From Gammaproteobacteria bacterium (GTDB lineage Bacteria; Pseudomonadota; Gammaproteobacteria; Arenicellales; JAJDZL01): a stretch of 40,467 bases of DNA. The position numbers and the translations under genes were made by a program. Below are positions 9,597-34,707 of the stretch, piece after piece; the first letter of the stretch is position 1; the number at the start of each line of letters is the position of its first letter. Under the pieces are notes generated by a model. That model did no database searches. It saw only the letters and a program-made list of their open reading frames with translations, and was not told where the DNA came from. The stretch is from NCBI GenBank assembly GCA_022823405.1, contig JAJDXD010000149.1:1-40467 (forward strand), given 5' to 3'.

Positions 9597-9665
9597 CTTT
9601 TAGATTCAATAGTTCGCAATTTGCATCGACGTTGTAGTCTGATGCTATGCACCTTTATTGAAGTA

Positions 9666-15294: not shown

Positions 15295-15881
15295 GTCGGA
15301 GAGACCGATTGACGGTGCGAAAGATTTGTATCGGTAAAATCGCCCGGTTCGTTACATTGTTTGTGCTCTGTATGACGGTGTCACCATCTTTTGGATTTTC
15401 CATTGTGTCTACTGAAGCCTTGCGTGATTCTGATTCTATGGTGACCGTCGTTGTGGATTCCAGGATCGAACTTTCGGATGACGTCGTTGAAGCGTTGAAT
15501 TCAAGTATTCCGATTACTGTTCAGACCACGATTAAGATCTATCAAGTACGAAATAATTTTTGGGATAAAAACATCTATGAATTCGTCACTCGAGATGTAA
15601 TCAGTTACAGAAGCCTGTACCGAGACTATTTGCTGAAATCCACTGATCGAAATGTGAATGGTGGTTACACCTCACTTGAGGCGATGCTGGAAGCACTGGG
15701 CAGACAACGAACATATCAAGTCGAACTAACTGAAGCCAATCTCAATAGGGATAGGTCTTACGTTGGGAGAGTAAGAATTTCGATTGATCGGTCAGCATTG
15801 CCTTCCGTCATGCGACTGCCTGTGTTTTTCAATGATGCTTGGCGTTTGAAGAGCGAACGGGTGAAATTCGACATCAAGTGA
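15291..15881 (+). CDS. DUF4390 family exported protein
   Basis: A 196-residue protein with an N-terminal signal or anchor sequence (hydrophobic residues about 17-36, ending near SFG). A beta-rich domain of the DUF4390 type follows, with characteristic runs such as LSDDVVEALNSSIPITVQTTI and a FFNDAWRLKS-type C-terminus. No biochemical function is established to my knowledge. This family regularly sits between rsmB and the NtrY/NtrX-like pair in gammaproteobacteria, which suggests an envelope role linked to that two-component system. It is coupled by overlap to rsmB upstream and to the kinase downstream (GTGA at 15878-15881). Confidence 0.85.
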   Translation: MSRRDRLTVRKICIGKIARFVTLFVLCMTVSPSFGFSIVSTEALRDSDSMVTVVVDSRIELSDDVVEALNSSIPITVQTTIKIYQVRNNFWDKNIYEFVTRDVISYRSLYRDYLLKSTDRNVNGGYTSLEAMLEALGRQRTYQVELTEANLNRDRSYVGRVRISIDRSALPSVMRLPVFFNDAWRLKSERVKFDIK

Positions 15882-21161: not shown

Positions 21162-21207
21162 ATCCCCTGGCGTAACCGCCACTCCTTAACCTTAAACTCA
21201 TTCTGCC

Positions 21208-22659
21208 ATGCACTACCAGTCAGTATTCAAGATTATTGGGATCTTGTTCGGCATGTTCAGTCTAACCCTGTTGCCACCGATTGCCATCGCCATTCTTTTC
21301 GATGATGGCGCATTCTACGATTTGTTGATATCGTTTTTCGTAATTTTTCTGGCAGGATTTGCTATGTGGTATCCCGTACGCAGGAATCGTCAGCAACTGG
21401 GTATACGCGAAGGATTTCTGACCGTCGCTGCTTTTTGGGTGTCTTTAGCACTGGCAGGGACTTTGCCATTTCTATTGTGGCACAACCTGGAAATCAGTTT
21501 TACTGATGCTTTTTTCGAATCGATGTCCGGCCTGACAACAACTGGGGCGACGGTGTTCACTGGTCTGGATCAACTGCCTTACTCAGTCCTGTATTACAGA
21601 AGTCAACTACAGTGGATCGGTGGGATGGGAATCATTGTGTTGGCAGTTGCTGTTCTTCCAATGTTGGGAATTGGTGGCATGCAGCTCTATATGGCGGAGA
21701 TGCCCGGTGTCATGAAATCCTCCAAACTAACTCCGAGAATAAAGGAGACGGCGAAGGCACTATGGTACATTTACCTTGGTTTAACTATAGTCTGCGCCTT
21801 GGCATACTGGTTGGCTGGAATGACTCCATTTGATGCGATAACTCACAGTTACACAACCATTGCGATCGGCGGTTTTTCTACCCACGATGCCAGTTTCAGT
21901 GTTCATTTCAACGACCCCGTCATGTTTGTCGCAATCTTTTTCATGATTGTTGCCGGGATTAATTTTTCGCTGCATTTCATGGTATGGAGCAAAAAAAGCT
22001 TTCGGGCTTACATCCAGGATACGGAAGTTAAAGTTTATCTCTGTTTAATCGTTGCGTTCATTGTGCTGATTTCCGCAGTGCTGGTGTTTTCTAATACCAT
22101 GGATTCTGCTACGGTAGCGATTAAGCACAGTGTTTTTCAAGTAGTGGCAATTGCAACCACATCTGGATTCACCTCTACGGATTTTGCAGCCTGGCCTCTG
22201 TTTCTGCCAGCCTTATTAATGCTGGCCAGTATCATCGGAGGTTGCACCGGGTCAACTGCTGGCGGAATTAAAGTGATGCGGGTCATCATGCTATTCAAGC
22301 AGGGTCGAAGAGAAATTTTAAAAGCCATTCATCCGGCTGCAATCATACCAATCCGCATGGGTGGTAAGTCGGTACCAGACAACGTCGTTAACAGTGTTTG
22401 GGGATTTTTTGCGCTCTACATTCTGAGCTTTGTAGTGCTCTCAATTCTGGTTTTGGCAACGGGCGTAGATATGGTAACCGCCTATTCCACCGTAACTGCC
22501 TGTCTAAATAACCTAGGTCCAGCTCTAGGCGCAGCGGCAGACAACTATTCTCAACTACCATCAGCAGCGAAGTGGATTCTGGCATTTGCGATGCTACTTG
22601 GACGATTGGAACTATTGACACTGCTGATTCTTCTGACACCACGATACTGGCAGAGTTAA
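21208..22659 (+). CDS. trkH: Trk potassium uptake system, membrane subunit
   Basis: Inner-membrane potassium translocating subunit. The 483-residue protein has about ten hydrophobic helices and the four pore-loop signatures of the SKT superfamily: MSGLTTTGATVF, TTIAIGGFSTHD, IATTSGFTSTDF and ACLNNLGPALG. The N-terminus MHYQSVFKIIGILFG closely matches the TrkH family. It is the last gene of the def-to-trkH run. A weak terminator-like stem lies about 110 nt downstream. Confidence 0.97.
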   Translation: MHYQSVFKIIGILFGMFSLTLLPPIAIAILFDDGAFYDLLISFFVIFLAGFAMWYPVRRNRQQLGIREGFLTVAAFWVSLALAGTLPFLLWHNLEISFTDAFFESMSGLTTTGATVFTGLDQLPYSVLYYRSQLQWIGGMGIIVLAVAVLPMLGIGGMQLYMAEMPGVMKSSKLTPRIKETAKALWYIYLGLTIVCALAYWLAGMTPFDAITHSYTTIAIGGFSTHDASFSVHFNDPVMFVAIFFMIVAGINFSLHFMVWSKKSFRAYIQDTEVKVYLCLIVAFIVLISAVLVFSNTMDSATVAIKHSVFQVVAIATTSGFTSTDFAAWPLFLPALLMLASIIGGCTGSTAGGIKVMRVIMLFKQGRREILKAIHPAAIIPIRMGGKSVPDNVVNSVWGFFALYILSFVVLSILVLATGVDMVTAYSTVTACLNNLGPALGAAADNYSQLPSAAKWILAFAMLLGRLELLTLLILLTPRYWQS

Positions 22660-22849: not shown

Positions 22850-22993
22850 CTACTGATTTAGAATGGTCGGGCCGGCTCGTTTTGTCTCGCGCATCATTTC
22901 GATGGATTCAACCGAGTTCAAGACAAAAATAGCGACAATTGCAAATACCGCCAACAGAATGATCGGTAAGATTATTCGTAAAAAGAATTCCAT
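22850..22993 (-). CDS. 47-residue single-helix membrane peptide at end of cytochrome cluster
   Basis: Read directly from the minus strand: MEFFLRIILPIILLAVFAIV, then AIFVLNSVESIEMM and a basic, polar tail ending NQ. One transmembrane helix spans about residues 5-26. It starts 76 nt after the 79-residue membrane protein gene and shares its direction, so it may be the last gene of the oxidase cluster, like the small accessory subunits of other oxidases. No homologue is recognised. The ribosome binding site is weak, which lowers confidence. Confidence 0.5.
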   Translation of the reverse strand: MEFFLRIILPIILLAVFAIVAIFVLNSVESIEMMRETKRAGPTILNQ

Positions 22994-23069
22994 TTGCAAA
23001 AATAGGTTTTGGTTGGAATAAAACGGTAATCGAAGCAGGAATGAATCGAAATGCTAAACTGACAGAAAA

Positions 23070-23309
23070 CTAATGCTTTAATTTTGTTCTGACCTTATTA
23101 CTTGAAGCATAACGTCGCCAGGCTACAATGATCAGAATAAAAAATGGTAGCAGAATACTGGCCAGAAATACAAAATACAAAAACCACGGGACTGCCATTG
23201 ACATCTGTACATAGACGTACGGACTCACCTGACCCCAGGCTGGCATGATTCCGATAAAGAGTGCACCGCCAATCAGGCATCTTAAGACGACTTGCAGCGA
23301 CAGTTGCAC
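23070..23309 (-). CDS. Small two-helix membrane protein
   Basis: About 79 residues if GTG 23309 is the start. That start lies 5 nt after the stop of the thioredoxin-like lipoprotein gene. Upstream in-frame codons to 23444 lie inside that gene and encode an implausible polar stretch. There are two hydrophobic helices, the first ending at MPAWGQ and the second VPWFLYFVFLASILLPFFIL, then a basic cytoplasmic tail. The first helix plus AWG could alternatively be a signal peptide. It probably belongs to the oxidase cluster. The function is unknown. Confidence 0.55.
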   Translation of the reverse strand: MQLSLQVVLRCLIGGALFIGIMPAWGQVSPYVYVQMSMAVPWFLYFVFLASILLPFFILIIVAWRRYASSNKVRTKLKH

Positions 23310-23314
23310 GAATT

Positions 23315-23827
23315 TTAGCTGCTGGATATCAGCTTTTCGATTTCGAGTTCCAGTAGACCCAATTCGGTTTGGCCCGGAAAGATTGATGCGATTTTGCCCG
23401 TCGCATCCACGAAATACGTCCACGGCTCGCCCTTGACTCCCCACTCAACCCAGATATTATTGTCCTTGTAGCCATCGACATGCAGGAAGGCAAATTTGTC
23501 GCCGTACTTTTCTTCCATTACTGCAACCCGGACGATCTGATCAACGCACATCGTACAGTGTTGAGGTGTGCCGAATACCACCATGAATGGTTCGCCCTCC
23601 TCAATGAGATTCGCAATGGTCCACTTATACAACGGCACCTTCGTATCCATCGTCGAGACTTCATACCAATTGTTCTGATCTTCCACAGTAAGATTGGCAC
23701 TCTTTGGCGCCTCATCACCGATTTTCAGTTTTGCTCCAATGCCGGTTGACTGTTCACTGCAAGATACCAGTGCAAACAAGGCGGTTAGTGTAAGAATCAG
23801 GAGTGGGGTTTTCTTTGGAAATGTCAT
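23315..23827 (-). CDS. Thioredoxin-like (TlpA/SCO-type fold) lipoprotein
   Basis: A 170-residue envelope protein with a lipoprotein signal (lipobox LVSC, Cys23) and a thioredoxin-like fold. The redox motif is CTMC (Cys91, Cys94) after FMVVFGTPQH, and the partner loop is KGEPWTYFVDATGKI, where cis-Pro is usual. Placed at the end of an oxidase cluster, it most likely reduces apocytochrome cysteines or helps deliver copper during oxidase assembly, as TlpA- and SCO-type proteins do. This is inference. It lacks the extra histidine arrangement that would firmly mark it as SCO. It is followed at once by the 79-residue membrane protein gene and is divergent from a tiny plus-strand ORF. Confidence 0.8.
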   Translation of the reverse strand: MTFPKKTPLLILTLTALFALVSCSEQSTGIGAKLKIGDEAPKSANLTVEDQNNWYEVSTMDTKVPLYKWTIANLIEEGEPFMVVFGTPQHCTMCVDQIVRVAVMEEKYGDKFAFLHVDGYKDNNIWVEWGVKGEPWTYFVDATGKIASIFPGQTELGLLELEIEKLISSS

Positions 23828-23890
23828 ATCAACAGTTTCGGATCGTTTACAATTGATATTTTAGTATCAACTTACTGGAATTTCTATCTC

Positions 23891-24034
23891 ATGCTGGAAT
23901 TACCTTTTCTGACAATTTTGGCGCTGATTGTTTTTGGTCTCGGTGGTTGTTTTGCACTGGCGATCGTACCGTGGGCTTGTATCGGCACTGGCCTTTTTAA
24001 GGAACAGGACTATCAGTCAGGACCCTCTGAATAA
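23891..24034 (+). CDS. Possible 47-residue membrane peptide on the opposite strand
   Basis: The plus strand reads MLELPFLTILALIVFGLGGC, then FALAIVPWACIGTGLFKEQD and a polar end. One hydrophobic helix (about 4-30) with a polar tail gives it membrane-peptide character. It fills the 241-nt gap between two minus-strand genes of the cytochrome cluster, and the reverse strand of the gap has no alternative ORF. The ribosome binding site is poor (a GGAA about 12 nt upstream). It may be a real small gene divergent from the thioredoxin-like lipoprotein gene, or a chance ORF. Confidence 0.4.
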   Translation: MLELPFLTILALIVFGLGGCFALAIVPWACIGTGLFKEQDYQSGPSE

Positions 24035-24068
24035 GCCTAACGTCCCCGTCAACAGCGTTCTCTAGCAA

Positions 24069-24482
24069 CTACCCAGGGTCCGTCGCAACCCTTAGTGCCA
24101 TCAGGTACTCAGCTAACAAATCCAGTTCGTTTTCTGGTAAATGATTGTAGGGTGGCATCTTTAGTCGATATGGCTTTGGACTAACCCCCTGTTTTGGTGA
24201 TTTCAAGTAACTAATGAGCCACTGCTTGTCGCGCTTGCTACCGACACCATCCAAGCTCGGGCCGTAGGAAGCTCCATTTCCAAATATTTCATGACACGAT
24301 AAACAGCCTTCCCGGCGATACAGTGCCTCTCCTTGTCTTGTTGCAGCGGTTTCGGTGTACTCAAATTGGATCGGCGGCGGTCTAAGAAATATTAGTGTTC
24401 CAACGACACCTGCGAAGAGTACGATCAGTGCGGAGCCAACGATGACGATCCACTCACCGGCAGACAGTCGCACTTTTTGCAC
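24069..24482 (-). CDS. Membrane-anchored monoheme cytochrome c (CcoP-heme-domain-like)
   Basis: A 137-residue protein with one N-terminal membrane anchor (about 11-33) and one periplasmic class I heme domain. CLSCH is at 60-64 and the likely axial Met109 is in LKMPPYNHL. The segment GPSLDGVGSKRDKQWLISYLKSP closely parallels the cytochrome encoded at 24693-25139, so the two are probably duplicates. They may replace the two heme domains of canonical CcoP. The start is GTG; a second GTG at 24473 has better spacing from GGCAGG and may be the true start. It lies 8 nt after the CcoS-like gene. Confidence 0.85.
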   Translation of the reverse strand: MQKVRLSAGEWIVIVGSALIVLFAGVVGTLIFLRPPPIQFEYTETAATRQGEALYRREGCLSCHEIFGNGASYGPSLDGVGSKRDKQWLISYLKSPKQGVSPKPYRLKMPPYNHLPENELDLLAEYLMALRVATDPG

Positions 24483-24490
24483 CTGCCAGT

Positions 24491-24652
24491 TCAGTTGTAA
24501 CGATCATCATCACCTTCGGTAAAAATTTGGTCTTTAATATTTTCGTCAAATTGGTTGTTTCGGTAAGCCCAGAATATGACGACTACAATAGCAACGAGCA
24601 TGAGAAACCCTGTCGCTGCCCAGATAAATGGAATAAGTGATTCGGCGTTCAT
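24491..24652 (-). CDS. CcoS-like oxidase assembly peptide
   Basis: A 53-residue protein read directly from the minus strand. It has one transmembrane helix (about 8-29), then FWAYRNNQFDENIKD and an acidic end with DDD. The helix followed by [FL]WA-(K/R)xx-QFD and an acidic C-terminus is the pattern of CcoS, needed for cofactor insertion into CcoN of cbb3 oxidases. Similarity is by eye only. GAGG sits 9 nt upstream of the ATG. It sits between two similar cytochrome c genes, unlike canonical ccoGHIS clusters; no ccoG, ccoH or ccoI is in this window. Confidence 0.6.
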   Translation of the reverse strand: MNAESLIPFIWAATGFLMLVAIVVVIFWAYRNNQFDENIKDQIFTEGDDDRYN

Positions 24653-24692
24653 AAATAGTGCCTCGATGTTTTGTCTTTCAATAGAGTGAACG

Positions 24693-25139
24693 TTATTCTG
24701 ACTCGCGTTTGACTTTCAGAGGGTAGTTCGGTGAATTTGGATTGGCCCGAAGTCCAGAAAGAAATGCAGCCAGTTGTTCTCGTTCTTCGTTTTCCAGGAG
24801 TCTGAAGTCAGGTCCCAGGTTGCCGTAGTGAGCAGTACCCGGAACCAGGCTGCCGGGGTCAGTCAGATACTCTTTCAGCCATGGTAAATCCCTGCGGGTG
24901 CCAACACCGTCCAGTACTGGTGCGACACCGACTTCTCCAGTCCCCATTGCCCGATGACAACTGTTGCATCCCATTTTCCGATAGACTTCATGTCCTTGCA
25001 GGCCAACCTCGTCAAAGGAATAAAAATGCTTGGGTGGGGCAGGGTCTAAGTCAGTGAAGTGATGGTAACCCTTGGCAATTGCAGCCACGACAACGATCCC
25101 CGAAAAGATGAACATAAATTTTTCGCCGCGTTTTAGCAA
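24693..25139 (-). CDS. Membrane-anchored monoheme cytochrome c
   Basis: A 148-residue protein with an N-terminal membrane anchor (about 8-24) and a class I heme domain with CNSCH at 58-62. PVLDGVGTRRDLPWLKEYLTDP corresponds closely to the same region of the cytochrome at 24069-24482. The C-terminal tail is charged. No obvious methionine occupies the expected axial position near LGPDFRLL, so the sixth ligand is uncertain. It probably passes electrons to the CcoO-like or CcoN-like subunit in the periplasm. It lies 33 nt after the 68-residue membrane protein gene in the same cluster. Confidence 0.85.
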   Translation of the reverse strand: MLKRGEKFMFIFSGIVVVAAIAKGYHHFTDLDPAPPKHFYSFDEVGLQGHEVYRKMGCNSCHRAMGTGEVGVAPVLDGVGTRRDLPWLKEYLTDPGSLVPGTAHYGNLGPDFRLLENEEREQLAAFLSGLRANPNSPNYPLKVKRESE

Positions 25140-25172
25140 TCGACTTTTCTCGGCGATTCAAAGATATTTTGA

Positions 25173-25379
25173 CTAGAACACCACACGAAACAGAAGTTCA
25201 GTAGCAGCGTAGACAACGACCAGAACGATGCCCACAACACTCAGCGAAAGCACTATTTTTTCGGCTTTCTTGAGCGTACTCAGTGGTCCAATGACAAATC
25301 TCGACATAACGACATAAACCAGAACGCCGATTATGATCAGCGTAAAGATTAGAGCCGATATTTGATCAGTAAAGCCCAC
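25173..25379 (-). CDS. Small two-helix membrane protein (68 residues)
   Basis: Two hydrophobic helices (about 7-25 and 42-63) are joined by a short basic loop (SRFVIGPLSTLKKAEK). No cofactor-binding residues are evident. It lies 27 nt after the CcoP-N-like gene and 33 nt before a cytochrome c gene, inside the oxidase cluster. An accessory structural subunit of the oxidase, comparable in size to CcoQ or CcoH, is the simplest reading. No family is recognised. Confidence 0.7.
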   Translation of the reverse strand: MGFTDQISALIFTLIIIGVLVYVVMSRFVIGPLSTLKKAEKIVLSLSVVGIVLVVVYAATELLFRVVF

Positions 25380-25406
25380 CTGGCGAACGGTTAAAGATCG
25401 TCCGCT

Positions 25407-25778
25407 CTATTGAGAATCCTCTTTTCGCTTTTTGTTCTCTTCAGCGCGTTCTTTCCATTTTTGAATATTAATGTACCAGATGATTCCTGAAATACAGCTA
25501 AGTACCAGGATGATCTGGAACAGTACCATGTAGTAGCCCCAGTCCCACCACGGCTGCTTGCCGGTTGCGCTGACGAATGTCGTCGTAATGGTGTCGTACC
25601 GTTGCCCAAACCCTTGCCAAGGCATCGTCCAAAGAAAGGCTTGAAAGACAGTTACAGCAACGATGAGAACCAGCCACCAAGGAATTTTGCCATTACCTTC
25701 TTTGATGCCATCGTACTCTTCGTCGCCGAAGCGCCCAAAAACTTCACCTTTATCTTCGAGTTCGTTGTGATCGCTCAT
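25407..25778 (-). CDS. Heme-less CcoP N-terminus-like membrane protein
   Basis: A 123-residue protein with an acidic cytoplasmic N-terminus, then EEYDGIKEGNGKIPWWLVLIV. This matches the start of CcoP (xWDGIxExxNPLPxWW followed by a helix). It has two membrane helices (about 33-52 and 81-103) and a highly charged C-terminal tail (KWKERAEENKKRKED). It has no CxxCH, so the two heme domains of canonical CcoP are missing. The downstream monoheme cytochromes may supply them as separate chains. The gene follows the CcoO-like gene by 26 nt, the position normally held by ccoQ-ccoP. Confidence 0.75.
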   Translation of the reverse strand: MSDHNELEDKGEVFGRFGDEEYDGIKEGNGKIPWWLVLIVAVTVFQAFLWTMPWQGFGQRYDTITTTFVSATGKQPWWDWGYYMVLFQIILVLSCISGIIWYINIQKWKERAEENKKRKEDSQ

Positions 25779-25804
25779 TATTTCACCTAATTCAAAGACG
25801 GTCG

Positions 25805-26326
25805 TTATTTCAGTGTATCCAGGTATGCAATGATGGCATCCAGTTCTTCATCAGTCAGATGTACGAATGCTGGCATGATTGATCCTGGTGTAACAGCCCG
25901 CGGATCGCGGTGATGGACGTAATGCCATGCCTTGACGCGATTACGGCTGGCGATATGCAGTAAATCAGGCGCCTTGCGATCTGAACCGAACAGACTTGGT
26001 GCTTCGCCCTGAACATCACCAGCCACCGGTGGGTCGCCAAAATATGCCCAGTCCTGAGTCTGTTCGGGCAGCAGCGTATGACACCACCAACAGCCTTCCC
26101 GAATGAAGATTTTCTTGCCTTTTCCGGCAAGTGTCGGGGCATCATCACCTCTCATCCATGGGTCATGAATTGTCCAAGCGCTGTGTCCCAGCATTTTTTC
26201 TTTCTCAATCGCCAGCTGAGTTCGTGGTATTTCATTCATATACGTTGAACCACCTACGATAGTGATAGCAATCGACAGAAAAATGACCAGGACGACTAAT
26301 ACAGCGCCAACTACGTATTTCGGCAT
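25805..26326 (-). CDS. CcoO-like membrane-anchored monoheme cytochrome c
   Basis: A 173-residue protein with an N-terminal helix (about 4-26) and a heme motif CWWCH at 79-83. The downstream order is that of CcoO: SLFGSDRKAPDL (GSKRTGPDL in cbb3), AWHYVHHRDPRAVTPGS and the axial Met151 in SIMPAF. It is shorter than usual CcoO because parts of the N-terminal half are reduced. It should bring electrons to the CcoN-like subunit. I chose ATG 26326 because GAGGTAG precedes it and it yields MPKYVVGAVL. An upstream in-frame ATG at 26398 would lie inside the preceding gene. Confidence 0.88.
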   Translation of the reverse strand: MPKYVVGAVLVVLVIFLSIAITIVGGSTYMNEIPRTQLAIEKEKMLGHSAWTIHDPWMRGDDAPTLAGKGKKIFIREGCWWCHTLLPEQTQDWAYFGDPPVAGDVQGEAPSLFGSDRKAPDLLHIASRNRVKAWHYVHHRDPRAVTPGSIMPAFVHLTDEELDAIIAYLDTLK

Positions 26327-26348
26327 CGTTTCTACCTCTATCGATAAA

Positions 26349-27761
26349 TTATGCGGTGGCACCAACCGGTGTTTGACCACCAGTTGTTTCAGGTGCAATT
26401 TTCTTGCCGTACTTGGCAGTCATCCACATGTTGTAGAGGAAAATTGGCTGTGCAAAAATGATCATGCCACCGAAGATAACCCGACCAACCATGTACGGAT
26501 GCGTGGCAATGACCGACTGGATGTAAGGAATCTCGTAGACCTTGGCAGCGCCTTGTACCAGGCCAGCTGCGGTCAGAACTGACCAGAATCCAAGGAAACC
26601 GATCGCCATCATCCAGAAATGAAGTCGAGCCAGTTTTTCACTGTACAGTTGACGTTTCAGGAGTTTTGGCAAACCATAGTAGATCGCGCCAATTTCAATG
26701 AAACTTGAGAATCCAAGCAGTGCGAGATGCGCATGTGCCACAATCCAGTGTGTTCCATGAATGTACCAATTGAGCGCCCGGGTTTGCTGAAATGCACCTT
26801 GAATATTAAGTGGAATAGCGAACAGCACTCCAGTCAATGCCCACTGCAATGGAATGTTCTTGGCGTACATCCACCATTTGTCTTTCATGGTCATCAACAT
26901 ATTGACCACAAAGGCCAGTGCCGGAATCATGATCAAGACGCCGGAAACTGATGCAAATGACTTTAGCCACTCAGGAATTGGCGCTCCCATAAGGTGGTGG
27001 GCGCCAGGTGTTGAATAAAACGCTGCAATTGACCAGAAGTGCAGGTGCCCAATCTTGTGACTGTAAAGTGTGTTTCCGGAAATTTTCGGAATGATGTAGT
27101 ACGCAATGGCGGCGGATACAGGTGTAATCCACAATCCAAGAATATTGTGTGCATGCCACCAAGTCATGTACGCTTCTGCCAGACCGGTTACTGGAAACAG
27201 GTCCGGAACTGCGCCGATAAAATAGCTCAATATGATGAACAGCAGCGCTGCACCGAAAAACCACATCGTGACGTAAAGGCCTTGAGTTTGCCGATACAGC
27301 ATAGTCAGCCAGATGTTGACTGCGAGTGGTGCAAAGACAAACACCAGCACAAAAATATCCAACGGCCAGATCAGGTCCTGATATTCACGACCAGAGGTCA
27401 TGCCGTTGATCAGTGTGAAGAATACAAATACCATGCCAATATTCCAGGCCCAGCAGTTCCAGACTCCCAGCTTTTCACTCCACAACTTGGTTTTGCACAA
27501 AGCTGGAGCCATGTAACACATTGCGCCCGCGAAGGCCATGGAAATCCAGCCGAAAATCACAAAGTGTACGTGAACCGGGCGGATCCTTCCAAAGTGGAGC
27601 CAGGGTATATCGTTAGGGAATACATCGGGCCAAGCCAATCGCATGGAGGTTAGGAGTGCGAGGAAAACCCCGATGTTCAGCATCACAATCGACGAAAAGA
27701 AGAAGTGTTTTGCTGCAGTGCCTTCCGCGTAGTCGTTTCGGGTGAGTATGTTCGTAGCCAT
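26349..27761 (-). CDS. CcoN-like heme-copper oxidase subunit I
   Basis: A 470-residue, about 12-helix catalytic subunit of the C (cbb3) family. Ligands by position: low-spin heme His64 (RPVH), CuB His205 (WWHAHN), His255 and His256 (GAHHL), and His343 and His345 (AHAH) for the high-spin and low-spin hemes. Tyr249, six residues before the first of the paired histidines, sits where cbb3 has its His-Tyr cross-link. REYQDLIWPLDI matches the conserved calcium-site region. The NorB glutamate that follows WWVVH is absent. These features favour O2 reduction over NO reduction, though specificity is not proven. It is followed by the CcoO-like gene 22 nt later and preceded by a 72-residue membrane protein gene. 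Confidence 0.92.
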   Translation of the reverse strand: MATNILTRNDYAEGTAAKHFFFSSIVMLNIGVFLALLTSMRLAWPDVFPNDIPWLHFGRIRPVHVHFVIFGWISMAFAGAMCYMAPALCKTKLWSEKLGVWNCWAWNIGMVFVFFTLINGMTSGREYQDLIWPLDIFVLVFVFAPLAVNIWLTMLYRQTQGLYVTMWFFGAALLFIILSYFIGAVPDLFPVTGLAEAYMTWWHAHNILGLWITPVSAAIAYYIIPKISGNTLYSHKIGHLHFWSIAAFYSTPGAHHLMGAPIPEWLKSFASVSGVLIMIPALAFVVNMLMTMKDKWWMYAKNIPLQWALTGVLFAIPLNIQGAFQQTRALNWYIHGTHWIVAHAHLALLGFSSFIEIGAIYYGLPKLLKRQLYSEKLARLHFWMMAIGFLGFWSVLTAAGLVQGAAKVYEIPYIQSVIATHPYMVGRVIFGGMIIFAQPIFLYNMWMTAKYGKKIAPETTGGQTPVGATA

Positions 27762-27782
27762 AATAATTGTCCCTTATTTTCC

Positions 27783-28001
27783 CTACTTTCCTTGCTTGAC
27801 CATAACGGAGTTCATGTACCAGAAAGTCAGTGCCGATATGACGCCTGTACCGATTGAAATGGCGAACCCCCAGACCAGCAAACCGGTCCATTCTTCGTGG
27901 CTGCGCATGCCAATCAGTGGCAGAATACAGAGCTGAAAAACAGTTCCGAGTCCCACACCAACTATGAAGCCGTTGTATAGAAAGTTAAGCAACCGATGCA
28001 T
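27783..28001 (-). CDS. Small two-helix membrane protein (72 residues)
   Basis: Two membrane helices (about 8-30 and 39-62) are separated by a short loop, RSHEEWTG. No metal- or heme-binding motif is evident apart from isolated histidines. The gene overlaps the end of the half-oxidase gene by 17 nt and precedes the CcoN-like gene by 21 nt. A good GGAGG lies upstream. The tight packing suggests a subunit that assembles with the half-oxidase and CcoN-like proteins. No family is recognised. Confidence 0.72.
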   Translation of the reverse strand: MHRLLNFLYNGFIVGVGLGTVFQLCILPLIGMRSHEEWTGLLVWGFAISIGTGVISALTFWYMNSVMVKQGK

Positions 28002-28557
28002 TTGGTTGACCTCCGCGCCGTTTAAAAACGGTCATAAATATGTTAACAATAAAAATCCAGTAGCCAAACCCCATCAGGATAGCTGTTGAAATAATTAGGA
28101 TGTGATGAATTGGGCCGACGGCATCCAAGGCTTGCAGGTAGGTCATCCCGCTCAGTATCATGTTGCCTTCGACTATGCCCAGGAAGACTAAGGAGCTGAA
28201 AAATCCAAGTACTCCGATGGTAGAAAACCAAAAAGAAGTATTGGATAAAACCGGGCTGTAAATTGGTCGTTTTACGATTTTTGGCAGAACGTAGTAAAAG
28301 AGTCCCATAATCGCCATTGTTACCCCGCCCACGAGGTTAATGTGCGCATGTGCCAGAGGGTCGATCATGTGACCGGCAGGGCCGGTAGCCCGAATCCACA
28401 ATGCGAACTCAGGCAGCGTCTGAAGAACCCCTTGTACAGTTCCAATCAACAAATGAGTAACGGACATGATTATGAACTTCAAAATCAATACCGAATCGGT
28501 ATCGATGGTTACATCGTTAACTACAGGTGCTGCCATTAGTGCCGCTAAACTATCCAT
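27985..28557 (-). CDS. Stand-alone half heme-copper oxidase subunit I (helix IX-XII-like)
   Basis: A 190-residue, about 5-helix membrane protein that aligns by eye with only the C-terminal third of the neighbouring CcoN-like protein. Its GHMIDPLAHAHINLVGG (62-78) matches HGTHWIVAHAHLALLG, keeping both histidines of the HxH heme pair (His70, His72). YYVLPKIVKRPIY matches YYGLPKLLKRQLY, and the following FWFSTIGVLGFF and the last helix FIVNIFMTV also correspond. The CuB ligands, the WWxxHN helix and the first low-spin heme ligand are absent. It could bind a heme alone or pair with another subunit. It has its own start, overlapping the preceding cytochrome gene by 8 nt, so it is a maintained gene rather than debris. 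Confidence 0.85.
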   Translation of the reverse strand: MDSLAALMAAPVVNDVTIDTDSVLILKFIIMSVTHLLIGTVQGVLQTLPEFALWIRATGPAGHMIDPLAHAHINLVGGVTMAIMGLFYYVLPKIVKRPIYSPVLSNTSFWFSTIGVLGFFSSLVFLGIVEGNMILSGMTYLQALDAVGPIHHILIISTAILMGFGYWIFIVNIFMTVFKRRGGQPNASVA

Positions 28558-29002
28558 TTGCCAGGTAGACGCGTTGCAAATTCAGGTAGCGAAGATATCC
28601 AACAATCTGCTGTCGCTGAACCGGGCTGAGTGTATTGCCCCATGGAACCATTGCAGAACCTTCAATTCCATCCCGAATCAATGTGCTTAATTCCTCATCA
28701 GATTTGTTGACAACTGTCTCATTCATCAGATTGGCCGGCTTTGGAACCATTCGGTACCTGAACTCACCGTTTCCACTGCCGTTTTCGCCGTGGCACTGCG
28801 CGCACAACTGAACGTAATAACTGCGCCCTCGCTCCAGGTTTGCAAGATCAGCATCATCTGGTAAAGCATCGTAATTGATTTGTGCATAAGGTTTGATACG
28901 CAGGATGGTTCGATCCTCTGGAAAGTAAGTAACAGAAAACCAACTCAATAGCCCGGCAATGATTACACCGCCCCCGACCCAAATTGCTAGCTGTAGATTC
29001 AA
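28550..29002 (-). CDS. Membrane-anchored monoheme cytochrome c
   Basis: A 150-residue class I cytochrome c with an N-terminal anchor (about 5-26). The heme motif CAQCH is at 67-71, followed by GENGSGNG, and the probable axial Met118 is in GSAMVPWG. The domain form (RGRSYYVQLCAQCHG...YLRYL) matches cytochromes that feed alternative oxidases or reductases. It starts 18 nt after the diheme cytochrome gene and overlaps the half-oxidase gene by 8 nt. An electron donor to the half-oxidase or CcoN-like subunit is likely but unproven. Confidence 0.88.
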   Translation of the reverse strand: MNLQLAIWVGGGVIIAGLLSWFSVTYFPEDRTILRIKPYAQINYDALPDDADLANLERGRSYYVQLCAQCHGENGSGNGEFRYRMVPKPANLMNETVVNKSDEELSTLIRDGIEGSAMVPWGNTLSPVQRQQIVGYLRYLNLQRVYLANG

Positions 29003-29020
29003 CTGCCCAGAGGTAATTTC

Positions 29021-29977
29021 TCACTGCTCCATACTCACTTCAGCAACTTGCTTGCCTGTTGCAGCTGACATCATTTGAGTCCGTGTTGCCTCAAGGTCAA
29101 ATTCCGGTCGCAGGGATATCACATACCACACCAGCTGCCAGCGTTGCGTTTCATCAAGGAAATCGGCAAATGAGGGCATTGGCGTGCCATCAAGGCCGGT
29201 GGTAAACGTTTGATAAATTCCTTTTGGGTCGCTGGAACCGACAAACTGAGCTGCGTCAGTAAAGTCTCGAGGTACGATGGGCAGACCAGCATCATCTTCA
29301 AGTCCCGGTGCCGATGGGCCGTCGCCTTTTCCGACCGGGCCGTGACATTGTTCACATTGCATCAGGGCGTAGACTTCTTTACCCGCTACGATGGATTCTT
29401 CATCTGGAGGAGGCGGGTCTGTGATCTCGATAGGATCTTCCTGCCATTCTGCCTCTTCTTCCCAACGGTCAGAAAAGGTTTTGATGTAGGCAACCACTGC
29501 CCAGCGGTCACGTTCGGGCAGAAATTTAAATGCAGGCATGTCCTGTTCATGAATCAGGCCGCGTGAAATTGACTTGAACAGATCGACATCAGTTGGCAGC
29601 GAGCCACTTGGAGTTGACCGCAGTTTATAAACTGCTTCTGTGAAGTCGCGTGGTTTACGGGGTAGTTTGTGCTCTTTGGCGTATAAGTCGCCCAATTCCC
29701 AAACTGCACCATTGCCATCACCGGAAGCGCCGTGGCAGCCGATGCAAAGTCCTCGGAATACCCATTCGCCGTGTTCAAGCAGTCGCGGCGTAACTTCTAT
29801 TCCTTCACTCAACACCGGATCGATATTTCCGGTTGTGGCAGGGTAATCGAATAATGACCGGCCTGAGGTTACTTCGCCGGTTTTCCCGCCTGCAGTCTGC
29901 ATTGATAAGCCGATAATTGCGGCTGCGCCGACTGTGGCGACAATTGAAACTATTGCAATGATCTTTTTCAAGGGCAC
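29021..29977 (-). CDS. Diheme cytochrome c, membrane-anchored
   Basis: A 318-residue protein with an N-terminal anchor or signal (about 5-25). It has two class I heme domains: CIGCH at 78-82 with axial Met147 in QDMPAF, and CEQCH at 208-212 with Met268 in TPMPSF. A Pro/Glu-rich linker (about 172-195) joins them. The GTG start is preceded by GGAG at good spacing. It opens the second half of the cluster, 168 nt after the cytochrome of the front module, with stem-loops between. Two-domain proteins of this type commonly shuttle electrons to terminal oxidases, and it may replace part of the electron-entry role of CcoP. Confidence 0.9.
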   Translation of the reverse strand: MPLKKIIAIVSIVATVGAAAIIGLSMQTAGGKTGEVTSGRSLFDYPATTGNIDPVLSEGIEVTPRLLEHGEWVFRGLCIGCHGASGDGNGAVWELGDLYAKEHKLPRKPRDFTEAVYKLRSTPSGSLPTDVDLFKSISRGLIHEQDMPAFKFLPERDRWAVVAYIKTFSDRWEEEAEWQEDPIEITDPPPPDEESIVAGKEVYALMQCEQCHGPVGKGDGPSAPGLEDDAGLPIVPRDFTDAAQFVGSSDPKGIYQTFTTGLDGTPMPSFADFLDETQRWQLVWYVISLRPEFDLEATRTQMMSAATGKQVAEVSMEQ

Positions 29978-30043
29978 GGTTACTCCGCGATGATTAATTG
30001 GCGATACGCCGAGTATTAACTACGAAATTTGGGTGAAGAATTT

Positions 30044-30089
30044 GGGGGTGAGTAATGATTTGCGATATTCGTATCATTACAGCACCCCC
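30044..30089 (-). repeat. Long imperfect stem-loop before the diheme cytochrome gene
   Basis: GGGGGTG (30044-30050) pairs with CACCCCC (30083-30089), and after a small internal bulge TAATGAT (30053-30059) pairs with ATCATTA (30073-30079). The inner 13 nt can form a short extra stem. No T-run follows on the minus strand, so it is not a classic terminator. It sits 66 nt upstream of the GTG of the diheme cytochrome gene and may stabilise, process or regulate the transcript. Confidence 0.6.
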
Positions 30090-30100
30090 AACACTTTCAT

Positions 30101-30131
30101 GACCCCCAGTCGATTCAGACTGATCGGGGTC
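30101..30131 (-). repeat. Second stem-loop in the same spacer
   Basis: GACCCC (30101-30106) pairs with GGGGTC (30126-30131), and directly inside it CAGTC (30107-30111) pairs with GACTG (30118-30122) around the loop GATTCA, with a 3-nt bulge. It lies just after the stop of the SoxA-like cytochrome gene. There is no T-run. Together with the neighbouring stem-loop it separates the front trio from the oxidase genes, as expected for an attenuator or an mRNA processing point. Confidence 0.55.
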
Positions 30132-30145
30132 AGCTTACACTATCG

Positions 30146-30598
30146 CTAGTGACGTCCGGGATCCAGCACAGATCCGCGGTTTGACCAGTAGATGTAGGCT
30201 TCCAGCGCTTTCATCGCTTCACCATCCGGGTCTATTATTTCACCTTCATTTGGTTTCTCAATGCACCAGTTGATCATGTCACGCAAAGTCGCGAATTCGC
30301 TCATCTGCTCCTGGAACTTTGGATACTCATGTGGGTGAACATCTGACGAGAATGGATGGCACATTGCACAAGCCATACCGGTATTTGACATATTAATTCC
30401 TTCCATGGTTGCGCCATGAAATAGTTCATCACCAAGGATGACCTGCTCCATGAATGCGTCGTTGAAGGCTTTTAACGTCTCAGCGTCGTGTGACACTTTA
30501 TGTGCAGAAGCGCGATTTACCATAAAGACAAATGCGAGCGATACACACAAAAGCGCGCTTATGAAGGCGATTAGCCCTTTGCTTTTAAAGCTTTGCAT
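30146..30598 (-). CDS. Exported monoheme cytochrome c, SoxA-like motif
   Basis: A 150-residue protein with a signal or anchor (about 8-31) and a single CAMCH at 77-81. The following HPHEYPKFQEQMSEFATLRDMINWCIEKP resembles the heme domain of SoxA-type cytochromes, which share the phrase LRDMINWCI. It has a second conserved cysteine (Cys112). SoxA proper is longer and works with SoxX; neither soxX nor other sox genes are in the window, so a thiosulfate role should not be assumed. It sits immediately downstream of the metallophosphoesterase gene with a strong GGAGAG ribosome binding site. Donor and acceptor are unknown. Confidence 0.82.
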   Translation of the reverse strand: MQSFKSKGLIAFISALLCVSLAFVFMVNRASAHKVSHDAETLKAFNDAFMEQVILGDELFHGATMEGINMSNTGMACAMCHPFSSDVHPHEYPKFQEQMSEFATLRDMINWCIEKPNEGEIIDPDGEAMKALEAYIYWSNRGSVLDPGRH

Positions 30599-30623
30599 TG
30601 TTTACTCTCCTATTTATGGTAAA

Positions 30624-31736
30624 TTAGTCGCCGGTCCAGCCGCGATCCGAGATTCTCGGAGACAATTTCTGATTGACATTGTCACCAGTACCCGAATCTG
30701 CTCTTCCAACGCCAAACACCTGCTCACGCCACATCATGTATTCAACTTCCATGTGAGCTTCAGCGTTCATGGCTAGGTTACCCCAACCAACACCGTCGAA
30801 GTGATCACCTGGGTCTACTCGCAACATGGGTCTTGTGAGTTCCGGTACACCTTCTGGCGCATATGGCCACGGCCACGATGTGGCCAGCATGCCGATGCTG
30901 CGCATTCCACCGATTTCATTGTACAGTGGCTGGTGAACGTGTCCATGAATGTTGGTTACGTTCTGCCACGGTGCAAGAATTTCCTGTACTTCACGCCAAT
31001 CTCGAATCCAGAAATTCCAAGGTGGAAAGTACTCGTAGAACGGCGTATGAGAGAAAATGATTACCGGTGCATCTTTTGGCCAATCGGACAACGTGCTGGA
31101 AAGCCATTGACGCTGTTCACTGCCCAATCCTGACCAGGGACCCGCCTGTGATCCATCTAGTCCGGACATGTGCGCCATGCGTTCTTCATTTGACATTCCG
31201 CGCGCCGACCAGTAATCTGGTGCGCGACCGACTGAATCAACACCGATGATTCGAACACCCTTGTGATCAAACGTCCACGGTGTTTCGCCGAAGTGTTTAT
31301 TCCAGCTTTCGCCAAGGTCAAGGTACCAGTCGTGCTCACCAGGGATGAAGTGTTTCGGGATTGTAACTTCCTGAAGCAATTCAGCACCCAGTTCAATTTC
31401 GACTGGATGTCCAAGCTGAGCCAAGTCGCCTCCAAATACCATGAAGTCAAATTTGTCTCCCATTGCCTGGACTTCGCTAAAGGCACGGACAGTTTTGTCA
31501 ATGAAACGCTGGTTCAGTTCACGAGGATACAGATGAGTATCGGATACCCACGCAAAACTGAACGGCTCGCTCATCGCCGCACTAGCTATTTCCATGGAGG
31601 ATAGGGTTTGGAAAACCCCCACTGCGCTGCCGGTAGCTACAGCACCTCCAGTCAAAAGCGATTTGTGGAGAAAGGTACGTCTCGTAATATCGACGTTACC
31701 CACCACTTGATCGCGGTCATGCTTATTATCAGTCAT
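30624..31736 (-). CDS. Tat-exported calcineurin-like metallophosphoesterase
   Basis: A 370-residue protein with a Tat signal (TRRTFLHKSLLTGG, Arg19-Arg20) and the five metallophosphoesterase blocks: SDTH (Asp66, His68), GGD (Asp104), GEHD (133-136), FSHTPF (His230) and GHVH (265-268). The usual GNHD/E block has Glu134 in place of Asn, which may alter metal binding or specificity. The Tat signal implies that it folds and loads its metals before export. It is transcribed between the cupredoxin-like and SoxA-like cytochrome genes. A substrate cannot be assigned. AAGGAGG precedes the start. Confidence 0.88.
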   Translation of the reverse strand: MTDNKHDRDQVVGNVDITRRTFLHKSLLTGGAVATGSAVGVFQTLSSMEIASAAMSEPFSFAWVSDTHLYPRELNQRFIDKTVRAFSEVQAMGDKFDFMVFGGDLAQLGHPVEIELGAELLQEVTIPKHFIPGEHDWYLDLGESWNKHFGETPWTFDHKGVRIIGVDSVGRAPDYWSARGMSNEERMAHMSGLDGSQAGPWSGLGSEQRQWLSSTLSDWPKDAPVIIFSHTPFYEYFPPWNFWIRDWREVQEILAPWQNVTNIHGHVHQPLYNEIGGMRSIGMLATSWPWPYAPEGVPELTRPMLRVDPGDHFDGVGWGNLAMNAEAHMEVEYMMWREQVFGVGRADSGTGDNVNQKLSPRISDRGWTGD

Positions 31737-31798
31737 ATAGTTTCCTCCTTATAACAGCATAAACAGTGGTAAATAATTGATGGTTATTGTGTACTATG

Positions 31799-32509
31799 TC
31801 AGTTCAGATGCACTGACGCATCTGTCGTTGCACCCGCCTGAACAGTAACTGAAATTTCCGTTTCCCCAACTGATTCCTGCCAAACCACCAAGGTGTAATC
31901 GCCTGGTGGTACGTTATCGATCATGAAATTGCCATCAGCTCCGGTTTGCATATGGTAAGGATTGGGCACAACTACGACCCAGCCAAGCATCCAACCGTGT
32001 GCATCACAGTCTGTACGGACAACTCCATTGCGCTTCAGAATTTTTGTTACTTTGGCATCCTTAAAGGGCAATGCGACGTTAAAGGCTGTGGCTTTTCCGT
32101 AGTAACCGTGCGAGTTGTGCAAAACCGGGTCGGAATTCAAAATATCGACTTTTCCGCGCTTTGCAACTTGTACGCGTGGCTCAAATATGCAATCAACGTT
32201 ATTGATTACTGGTCTGGCCATTTCCGGCCAAGCTTTGCCAGAAGCGATTTCTTTTATGTAGACTACGGCGTCTTGAACCGCACCACCTTCACCGACTAAT
32301 ATTGTGGGTTCCTTGCGTGCCTTGCCACAGACCTCTTTGTCTTTGGTTGGAAGCACAGTTCTCATCTTGACTCTGCCTGTGTAAGTCACTTGTCCAGAAA
32401 TGCTACCGCCGTCAGCGACTTCCATTTCCTGATACTTTGCGGCTTGGGCTGGCAGAGCGAATAGGGCAGCCAGAACTGATACGACTACAATCTGAAAAAT
32501 ATGCTTCAC
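31799..32509 (-). CDS. Exported cupredoxin / carboxypeptidase-regulatory-like protein
   Basis: A 236-residue protein with a signal peptide (cleavage near ALPAQA, residue 22). The central domain contains a type 1 copper site pattern: His131 or His134 in LHNSHGYYG, then Cys168, His171 and Met174 in CDAHGWM. Then comes a beta-sandwich, GADGNFMIDNVPPGDYTLVVW, of the carboxypeptidase regulatory-like type. It probably carries electrons or copper in the periplasm. It is the first gene of the long minus-strand run, starting with GTG (AGGAG at good spacing), with candidate regulatory sites just upstream. Copper binding is predicted from residues only. Confidence 0.85.
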   Translation of the reverse strand: MKHIFQIVVVSVLAALFALPAQAAKYQEMEVADGGSISGQVTYTGRVKMRTVLPTKDKEVCGKARKEPTILVGEGGAVQDAVVYIKEIASGKAWPEMARPVINNVDCIFEPRVQVAKRGKVDILNSDPVLHNSHGYYGKATAFNVALPFKDAKVTKILKRNGVVRTDCDAHGWMLGWVVVVPNPYHMQTGADGNFMIDNVPPGDYTLVVWQESVGETEISVTVQAGATTDASVHLN

Positions 32510-32828: not shown

Positions 32829-33794
32829 TCAATAGATTGATGGTTCGCCTTCCGGTCGGGTACTAAACCGTTTGTGCAGCCAAAAGTATTGATCCGGGCT
32901 CTCGCGCACCAGTGATTCGACCAGTTGATTGAGCCTTTCAGCATCCGCCTGAGAGTCTCCGCTAATAAATTCTTCGGGCAGAAGTTCAGTGCGCATTTCA
33001 TAGCGCTTACGCGTATTAGACATCAGTGTGTGACACAAAAAAATTCTGGCATCCGCGAACTTGGAGAATCGCGTCAATGTGGTAAATGTCGATGCCGATA
33101 CGCCAAAAAATGGGGCAAAAGTGATGTGAGGCGGACGGTTGCCGTTCTGATCGGGCAGGTAGAAAAACGGCGTGCCGGACTTCAGCGCTTTGTAAAAAGG
33201 ACTCATGCTCCCGCGCGACGGAATCATCCGAAGATGATGATTGCCGCGTCTTTGGTAAATCTTGTTCAGCCATGGGAAGGGTGACTCGACTCCGGAGAGA
33301 GCACAGTGATAACCCATGTCAAAAATCGGATTGCGTGGTCGACGATAAATTGAAACAGCGGGTGTCAGCGAACCGATAGTACGGTAAGTCAGCATTGGAG
33401 CGGTGAAATGCGGACAGAGCAAAATCACGGGGCGTTTGAGCTTGATGAAAGTCTGAAATGAATCCCGTCCTTTCCACTCCACCTCGCGGTCAATTCGCCG
33501 CTGACTGGCGAATAGTCCAAAACCCCAACTTAACACCCCGCGACCAGCATTTCTGAACGTCTGCCTGGCTAACTGTTTACGTTCGGCCGTGGACTTTTCA
33601 GGAAAACACAATTCCAAATTTCGATGGACCACTCTGCGACGTGAACCAACCAAAAGGTAGAGTATGCTACCAATTGCACTGCCGATAGTCCATCGCATCG
33701 GCAATGGAAGCAGGCTCAGGCTGATCCAGAATATCGAACCGACGAAACCAAACGCTTGATGCTTCAGAGAAGGTTCAGTAGGGTGGGGTGCCAT
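32829..33794 (-). CDS. LpxL/HtrB-family acyltransferase, catalytic acid missing
   Basis: A 321-residue member of the lipid A late acyltransferase family. It has an N-terminal membrane anchor, the HRNLELCFPEKS segment and a C-terminal QYFWLHKRFSTRP like LpxL (WxHRRF). The catalytic HX4D/E motif reads CPHFTAPM, so the acidic residue is replaced by methionine. The downstream PDQNGNRPPHITFAPFFG resembles the family's DQ/FFG block. Either another residue serves or the protein is not a standard acyltransferase. It overlaps the 33775-34707 gene by 20 nt and probably arose by duplication. Confidence 0.82.
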   Translation of the reverse strand: MAPHPTEPSLKHQAFGFVGSIFWISLSLLPLPMRWTIGSAIGSILYLLVGSRRRVVHRNLELCFPEKSTAERKQLARQTFRNAGRGVLSWGFGLFASQRRIDREVEWKGRDSFQTFIKLKRPVILLCPHFTAPMLTYRTIGSLTPAVSIYRRPRNPIFDMGYHCALSGVESPFPWLNKIYQRRGNHHLRMIPSRGSMSPFYKALKSGTPFFYLPDQNGNRPPHITFAPFFGVSASTFTTLTRFSKFADARIFLCHTLMSNTRKRYEMRTELLPEEFISGDSQADAERLNQLVESLVRESPDQYFWLHKRFSTRPEGEPSIY

Positions 33795-34707
33795 TGTCGG
33801 GACGGGATTTGAACCAACGAAGAGTCCACAGGTATTGTTCCGGAGCAGCTGAAATCATATTTTCAAAAATGGCATTCATTCGACGTGCATTGGTGTAGCT
33901 GTCATCAGTGGGAAAGTTTTCCAGAGGTGCTTCAATCGTAATGTCGTATCGTCCGGTTTTGGAATCCAGGTAAGAGCGAACTGGTAAAACTTTTGCATTG
34001 GTCAGCCGGGCCATTCGTCCCAGCGTGTTAAGAGTAGCAACGGGAACGCCGAAGAAGGGGACAAAAATTGAGTTGTTCACACCGAAGTCTTCATCCGCAA
34101 TATAGTAGCAACTGACCTTTTTCTTGAGATTCTGTACCAATGGTAGCAGTCCTTGAGAGCGGGTGTAAAGTTTCAATCCAAAGCGTTTCCGATTGGCCTT
34201 GAGCCGATTGTTCAGAACTGGATTCTTATGGTCCCGCATCATTGTGCAGACTGGCAGGTGTCGGGATAGCAGCGTTCCAGCGATGTCGACACCAACCAGG
34301 TGAGGCGTAAGAAAAATGACTGCATGTCCTGCATTGCTGATTCTACGGTAGTTTTCGAAGCCCTCTATATTGATGACTGCGTTGAGTCTTTCTTCGCTCG
34401 ATAGAGATACCATTCCAAGATCAACAACCGCTTGCCCGTAAATCTTGAAATGTTCGCGAATTACCTGCTTGCGCTTTTCGAGTGGCCAGTGAGGAAAGCA
34501 TAATTCCAGATTGATGTGAGCGATTCGCCGACGTTTGGCATTGACAAGGTAAAACAGCCTTCCTACTTGGGCACCAAAGACGAGACGCAACTTGCCAGGC
34601 AACTGCGCCATAAGCGCCAATACACCGATAGCCAGCCATGCTGGCAGAAGCTTTAGCCGCTGCGTTGAGGGTTTGAGTCTTGAGGTGAAGTACATTGTGT
34701 TTGTCAT
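33775..34707 (-). CDS. LpxL/HtrB-family acyltransferase
   Basis: A 310-residue protein of the lipid A biosynthesis lauroyl/myristoyl transferase family, membrane-associated. The HX4D motif is intact in TPHLVGVDIAG. Family segments HINLELCFPHWP, YIADEDFGVNNSIFVPFFG and the C-terminal QYLWTLRWFKSRP are present. It may acylate lipid A or another lipid; ornithine-lipid or flavolipid roles are known in distant relatives. Directly downstream is its paralogue with an altered active site, overlapping by 20 nt. The glycosyltransferase-like genes lie upstream in the same direction. Confidence 0.88.
   Translation of the reverse strand: MTNTMYFTSRLKPSTQRLKLLPAWLAIGVLALMAQLPGKLRLVFGAQVGRLFYLVNAKRRRIAHINLELCFPHWPLEKRKQVIREHFKIYGQAVVDLGMVSLSSEERLNAVINIEGFENYRRISNAGHAVIFLTPHLVGVDIAGTLLSRHLPVCTMMRDHKNPVLNNRLKANRKRFGLKLYTRSQGLLPLVQNLKKKVSCYYIADEDFGVNNSIFVPFFGVPVATLNTLGRMARLTNAKVLPVRSYLDSKTGRYDITIEAPLENFPTDDSYTNARRMNAIFENMISAAPEQYLWTLRWFKSRPDNGTPPY

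Follow-up and report, generated by a model that had tools for sequence, protein, structure and literature searches.

A probable divergent cbb3-related oxidase with a split CcoP and a free-standing four-helix counterpart of part of subunit I

Does a cluster of cbb3-like genes in which normally fused parts appear as separate chains reflect decay, or does it encode a respiratory enzyme, and if so, of what kind? The question is raised by a stretch of 40,467 nucleotides (all of which is termed the window) on contig JAJDXD010000149.1 of a gammaproteobacterium of the order Arenicellales, where 17 closely spaced genes, all on the minus strand, span positions 22850–32509. The analysis suggests, with a probability of roughly 0.78, that this run encodes a complete, divergent cytochrome c:O2 oxidoreductase of the C family, i.e. 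one related to the cbb3 oxidases. A preliminary description based on the DNA sequence had regarded the cluster as dismantled; no decay was found, and both decay and an assembly artefact were rejected, as the set and order of genes are conserved in five genomes of the same genus, two of which are chromosomes of Arenicellales metagenome-assembled genomes (OY282380 and OX638343). Among these five, identity amounts to 93–99% for the CcoN-like protein and mostly 52–99% for the others, the exceptions to completeness being locus L066, which stops at a contig border inside the thioredoxin-like gene, and L067, in which the final three genes escaped detection.

The CcoN-like catalytic subunit carries this assignment. 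Its profile matches the cbb3 structure 3mk7 over the full length (E 6e-72), and the residues expected of such an enzyme are present, namely the heme b/b3 ligands H64, H343 and H345, the CuB ligands H205, H255 and H256, and the cross-link tyrosine Y249, which stands six residues ahead of the His-His pair as is typical of the C family. All seven are invariant in 30 of 30 members of the clade and in 24 of 24 canonical CcoN sequences. The position of canonical Glu323 (3MK7 numbering), which adjoins the proximal histidine of heme b3, is occupied by Gln in all 30 clade members and by Glu in all 24 canonical proteins, a substitution that may entail redox tuning differing from that of canonical cbb3; an additional histidine (H239) is invariant within the clade. 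Identity to canonical CcoN is about 30%, and the score on the NCBIfam ccoN model (TIGR00780) is 235.7 bits, below the equivalog cut-off of 583.15. In a maximum-likelihood tree the 30 clade members separate from the 24 canonical sequences with support of 100/100 on very long branches, such that the split is safe and the root is not; the placement of the Nitrospirota members is weak (82/75). The oxidase is considered non-canonical, since it lacks a diheme CcoP and misses the ccoN cut-off, and is probably a sister clade within the C family that functions in the manner of a cbb3 cytochrome c oxidase.

The genes of the run are given below, with lengths in amino acids (aa). Gaps between them mostly range from a 17-base overlap to approximately 70 bases; the diheme cytochrome and the lipoprotein are preceded by wider ones, of 168 and 241 bases, respectively. 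Every component named in the preliminary description was recovered, including the tightly packed, tiny membrane proteins, and one further cytochrome (W03) was added to its list; the head of the run is formed by a CarboxypepD_reg protein and a metallophosphoesterase.

31799–32509, minus strand: W01, secreted CarboxypepD_reg-like protein of 236 aa, confined to the sub-clade of the window
30624–31736, minus strand: W02, calcineurin-like metallophosphoesterase of the Tat (twin-arginine translocation) type, 370 aa, specific to the same sub-clade
30146–30598, minus strand: W03, cytochrome of 150 aa with a SoxA/TsdA-type c domain and one CxxCH
29021–29977, minus strand: W04, diheme cytochrome c of 318 aa matching Cytochrom_C over two stretches (its orthologs contain two CxxCH), a probable periplasmic electron donor
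28550–29002, minus strand: W05, membrane-anchored monoheme cytochrome c of 150 aa
27985–28557, minus strand: half subunit I of type B (half B), 190 aa, a free-standing four-helix module corresponding to helices IX–XII of subunit I, with an invariant H70-A-H72 (COX1 65.8 bits, profile positions 305–430 of 436)
27783–28001, minus strand: W07, small membrane protein of 72 aa, 72–99% identical among sub-clade relatives and weakly matching a 74–75-aa protein upstream of the CcoN-like gene in Nitrospirota
26349–27761, minus strand: CcoN-like catalytic subunit, 470 aa (COX1 E 3e-81)
25805–26326, minus strand: CcoO-like monoheme subunit, 173 aa, with a CWWCH motif and an invariant Met155 in a SIM motif (FixO E 6e-20)
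25407–25778, minus strand: heme-free N-terminal (FixP_N) anchor of CcoP (CcoP-N), 123 aa (28.9 bits against a Pfam cut-off of 24.9)
25173–25379, minus strand: W11, small membrane protein of 68 aa, the counterpart of a 90–115-aa protein of relatives
24693–25139, minus strand: W12, membrane-anchored monoheme cytochrome c of 148 aa, from a family lacking a conserved Met ligand
24491–24652, minus strand: W13, CcoS/FixS-like peptide of 53 aa with invariant W28, QF, E37 and I39 (FixS 22.6 bits, slightly below the cut-off of 23.1)
24069–24482, minus strand: W14, membrane-anchored monoheme cytochrome c of 137 aa, similar to W12, Met ligand conserved
23315–23827, minus strand: thioredoxin-like lipoprotein, 170 aa, with lipobox Cys23 and a C91-T-x-C94 motif
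23070–23309, minus strand: W17, small protein of about 79 aa with a signal peptide and one transmembrane helix, the counterpart of a 92-aa protein of relatives
22850–22999, minus strand: W18, peptide of 49 aa with a single transmembrane helix

The CcoN-like subunit is predicted to carry heme b and the heme b3–CuB centre and would thus be the site of O2 reduction, receiving electrons from the CcoO-like subunit. The start of the latter is most likely the conserved Met codon at 26326 rather than an upstream TTG, and is placed there because of this conservation; its CxxCH and Met are invariant across the family. The diheme CcoP of canonical cbb3 has no single counterpart, as the FixP_N domain is present, CxxCH is absent from it in every relative examined, and the heme cytochromes are separate proteins. 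The heme relay would accordingly be provided by the membrane-anchored W12 and W14, themselves presumably reduced by the periplasmic mono- and diheme cytochromes, while the CcoS-like peptide and the thioredoxin-like lipoprotein would act in assembly. In W14-type cytochromes the Met ligand is conserved in 76 of 78 sequences; W12-type proteins show no conserved C-terminal Met ligand at the expected place, and their heme ligation is possibly bis-His or of another kind. Canonical cbb3 holds both His/Met and bis-His c hemes, and W12 and W14 could mirror the two hemes of CcoP; the separate cytochromes would then be putative replacements for them. For Ferrovum JA12 only subunits I and II were reported and co-localised cytochromes were proposed as a replacement of subunit III (PMC4725956), so that the split of CcoP, as put forward in the preliminary description, has precedent. 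Additionally, a single open reading frame of 610 aa in locus L088 (7436–9268) matches both W04 and W01, hinting at a functional tie between these two proteins.

Recurrence of the cluster in related genomes, a check named in the preliminary description, extends well beyond the genus. Among 60 relatives searched, those belonging to the same order but to other genera showed no full-length match exceeding 33% identity. When 84,980 species genomes were scanned with the alignment of CcoN-like proteins, 200 relatives emerged, the best 80 of which include Gallionella, Sideroxydans, Ferrovum, Candidatus Nitrotoga fabula, Mariprofundaceae/Zetaproteobacteria, Chromatiales and Nitrospirota. The gene set recurs, in rearranged order, in 79 further loci, where, despite contig ends, ccoO was present in 76, ccoPN in 73, W11-like and W13-like genes in 67 each, W14-like genes in 65, the thioredoxin-like gene in 54 and a second type of half subunit (half A) in 46. 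The clusters of iron oxidisers and Nitrotoga share with the window a CcoN-like protein (57–60% identity), CcoO, CcoP-N, W11- to W14-like proteins, the thioredoxin-like lipoprotein and, in the wider family, a W17-like protein. The wider clusters add a diheme c4 (Cyc1-like) cytochrome, half A, an FGE-domain protein, a spermidine-synthase-like membrane protein, CcoG and half B. Unlike these, the sub-clade of the window (sub-clade II: the window, L070 and L088–L092) has half B alone instead of two halves, a shorter CcoO and CcoP-N, its own upstream cytochromes, and no genes for the FGE-domain protein, the spermidine-synthase-like protein (SpdSyn) or CcoG, the latter being confined to the clusters of relatives.

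The FGE-sulfatase-domain protein and the spermidine-synthase-like membrane protein of 880 aa are regular members of the wider clusters (9283–10338 and 11085–13748 in L071, and orthologs).

In Nitrospirota, a CcoN-like protein occurs in 22 of 245 genomes, some with two or three copies. In four of these genomes (loci L179–L182, 57–59% identity) no CcoO, CcoP-N, cytochrome or half module was detected within 20 kb, and in genome G430 (gene content determined by tblastn) the core of CcoN, CcoO and CcoP-N (NOP) lies on one contig and W13- and W14-like genes, half B, FGE, half A, the thioredoxin-like gene and CcoG on another.

What, then, is the half subunit doing beside a complete subunit I? Halves A and B, both of which are carried by most relatives, are homologous four-helix proteins predicted with confidence by AlphaFold2 (predicted local distance difference test, pLDDT, of 92 and 86, respectively). 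Half B superposes on residues 295–464 of 3mk7 (helices IX–XII; Z 16.3, root-mean-square deviation 3.2), and half A has the same top Foldseek matches, these being cbb3 CcoN chains with a template modelling (TM) score of about 0.77. Both contain an invariant HxH, the motif through which CcoN ligates hemes b and b3 axially; the module copies the last of the three four-helix arcs of subunit I, including both axial-ligand histidines. Against the three arcs of the CcoN-like protein of the window, the half A profile scored 28.5, 16.1 and 72.0 bits (shuffled maximum 6.4) and that of half B 21.7, 16.3 and 54.5 bits (shuffled maximum 8.1); three stretches of 3mk7 CcoN are also matched. These matches record, at the level of sequence, the threefold architecture of heme-copper oxidases (HCOs).

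When the class was searched with the half subunit, free-standing reading frames, mostly of 170–200 aa and with 39–67% identity, appeared in approximately 35 of 369 genomes, usually with two in the same genome. At least one half was present in all 24 genomes tested that have the CcoN-like protein, and the latter in 23 of 27 half-bearing genomes, the remaining four tending to be of lower completeness or more fragmented. A half A was detected neither in the window's genome (COX1 at E 1e-3) nor in those of the same genus, and plasmids, searched with the half subunit, yielded nothing but cbb3 subunit I genes at 27%. The most economical reading is that the half subunit and the oxidase are partners in function; the most likely role of the half subunit, which we would put at about even odds, is that of an accessory subunit binding heme b.

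As the main alternative, with the same oxidase, the modules may not be subunits but may serve maturation: by imitating the final arc of subunit I, they would keep heme b (or CuB) in place or insert it while CcoN is assembled. This is a tentative possibility, consistent with the wider family, in which half A directly adjoins the thioredoxin-like lipoprotein and half B lies near CcoG/FixH-like genes, and with the Nitrospirota genome in which both halves accompany the thioredoxin-like, FGE-domain and CcoG genes away from the NOP core; yet the module is no less constant than the cytochromes, its gene in the window sits between those of W05 and the CcoN-like protein, and assembly of canonical cbb3 is not known to require such a factor. 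The same separability from the NOP core, together with an HxH in helix 2 that would permit bis-His hemes between modules and the prevalence among carriers of lithotrophs with high-potential donors, would fit a distinct heme b/c membrane complex of the modules with W12, W14, W04 and W05, which might, for instance, move electrons uphill from cytochrome c to quinone and would have no more than an operon in common with the oxidase. Such a complex is improbable: its quinone site is only hypothetical, reverse electron flow is of little obvious use to the genus of the window, in which RuBisCO and DsrA were not detected, and Gallionellaceae already possess bc1 and alternative complex III (ACIII) for uphill transfer (PMC10734462). 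It is similarly doubtful, on our estimate, that the modules (A with B, or an oligomer of B) assemble beside the complete oxidase into a heme b protein of several chains and pseudo-threefold symmetry, the two histidines of each HxH fixing hemes between neighbouring arcs; if so, this would be an HCO core whose arcs are separate proteins, reminiscent of the triplication from which the superfamily is presumed to stem. That the half subunit is a functionless, decaying duplicate of the CcoN C-terminus can practically be discounted: its closest relative within the genome is indeed the C-terminal arc of the CcoN-like protein, but the free-standing reading frames of 170–200 aa keep 30 invariant columns across many families at about 37–60% identity, and the four-helix fold is confidently predicted, a conservation that contradicts decay.

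Whether the complex reduces O2 or NO can be approached through its relatives. In Nitrotoga fabula the COX1-family genes comprise one CcoN-like gene and two half subunits only, and no CydA was found; likewise, no other COX1-family oxidase and no CydA were detected in six genomes of 95–100% completeness (G130, G172, G288, G385, G228 and G202). As Nitrotoga respires O2 with nitrite, the complex would have to be its O2 reductase unless an additional, unknown oxidase exists. Since the CcoN-like protein is the only terminal oxidase found in these seven genomes, the complex of the window is almost certainly an O2 reductase rather than a NO reductase, judging from gene content. The loss of Glu323 and the weak match of the CcoN-like protein to NorB (E 8e-12) would fit a nitric oxide reductase that arose from a cbb3 oxidase; the NorB similarity lies far below that to CcoN, Y249 and the three CuB histidines are invariant, and the sole-oxidase status in aerobic Nitrotoga and others argues in the same direction, making such an enzyme very unlikely.

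Expression data for relatives, whose published strains were matched at genus level and not locus by locus, agree with a role as oxidase. In Zetaproteobacteria mats cbb3 genes follow Fe(II) (PMC7029218); Sideroxydans ES-1 expresses its two cbb3 clusters at high levels, one of them being linked to a Cyc1 homolog (PMC8788666); and in Tenderia the non-canonical complex IV-2 ranks among the highest-expressed genes while expression of the canonical ccoNOPQ is low (PMC5371394). Proximal and distal cbb3 forms both occur in iron oxidisers (PMC7029218, PMC8788666).

Several points weigh against an oxidase of the proposed composition. The genus of the window also has aa3 and canonical cbb3 oxidases, so the sole-oxidase argument derives from relatives at 57–60% identity, and the oxidase of the organism itself is known solely from its genes. 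W12 and W14 are tied to it through linkage, and in G430 the halves and the W13- and W14-like genes lie apart from the NOP core. Heme binding by the half subunit is deduced from two histidines, and a lone four-helix monomer cannot rebuild a three-arc pocket. Finally, with Gln for Glu323 in all 30 clade members, tuning and even proton chemistry may differ.

RuBisCO large subunit and DsrA, which several other oxidase carriers have, were not detected in six genomes of the window's genus, its own included (G000–G005), and a link to autotrophic sulfur oxidation was therefore rejected for this organism.

Compared with canonical cbb3 (CcoNOQP of P. stutzeri, 3MK7), the system shares the CcoN fold, the ligands, the cross-link tyrosine, a CcoO-like monoheme subunit, the FixP_N anchor and a CcoS-like peptide; it differs in lacking a diheme CcoP, in its separate monoheme cytochromes, in Gln for Glu323 and in its free-standing four-helix modules. 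The cNOR and qNOR enzymes have the superfamily and the HxH of helix X in common with it, whereas the oxidase tyrosine and CuB ligands are retained in the window. The cbb3 of Nitrospina gracilis (PMC3578206) is likewise an atypical enzyme of a nitrite oxidiser; it is fused, has a diheme subunit III part and a replaced Trp203, while the window's is split and retains the Trp. Clusters annotated as 'cbb3-type' in Ferrovum JA12 (FERRO_02570/02560), Sideroxydans ES-1, Tenderia (complex IV-2) and Mariprofundus belong to the same family, as judged from genomes of those genera.

The preliminary description's proposal of an alternative C-family complex, with CcoP reduced to a membrane anchor, separate heme chains and a constant fragment of subunit I, is thus supported. 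Its statement that it knew of no described enzyme of this make-up is not supported: members of the family have been annotated and transcribed as cbb3-type in iron oxidisers (PMC8788666, PMC7029218, PMC5371394). In the literature searched, no biochemical characterisation was found. Already known, then, are the relatives as 'cbb3-type' and the missing subunit III of Ferrovum; apparently new are the free-standing modules, which went unmentioned in the literature searched. The 'cbb3-type' annotation would mask, in a lineage of iron- and nitrite-oxidising bacteria, a differently built enzyme distinguished by the absence of a diheme CcoP, an active-site neighbour changed from Glu to Gln, and constant extra chains, which bears on the route of high-potential electrons from Fe(II) or nitrite to O2, for instance in Nitrotoga. 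As the module profiles recognise each of the three CcoN arcs from sequence alone, the modules also open the threefold architecture of HCOs to experiment.

Outside the cluster, TrkA-/TrkH-like potassium uptake genes (19755–22659, plus strand, read from the sequence) converge on it and are preceded by a histidine kinase (15839–18394) and a sigma-54 response regulator (18391–19758). Immediately upstream of the cluster lies a tandem pair of lipid A acyltransferase-like genes (32829–34707 region, minus strand; Pfam-confirmed for one), beyond which a DUF2064 protein and a glycosyltransferase are encoded.

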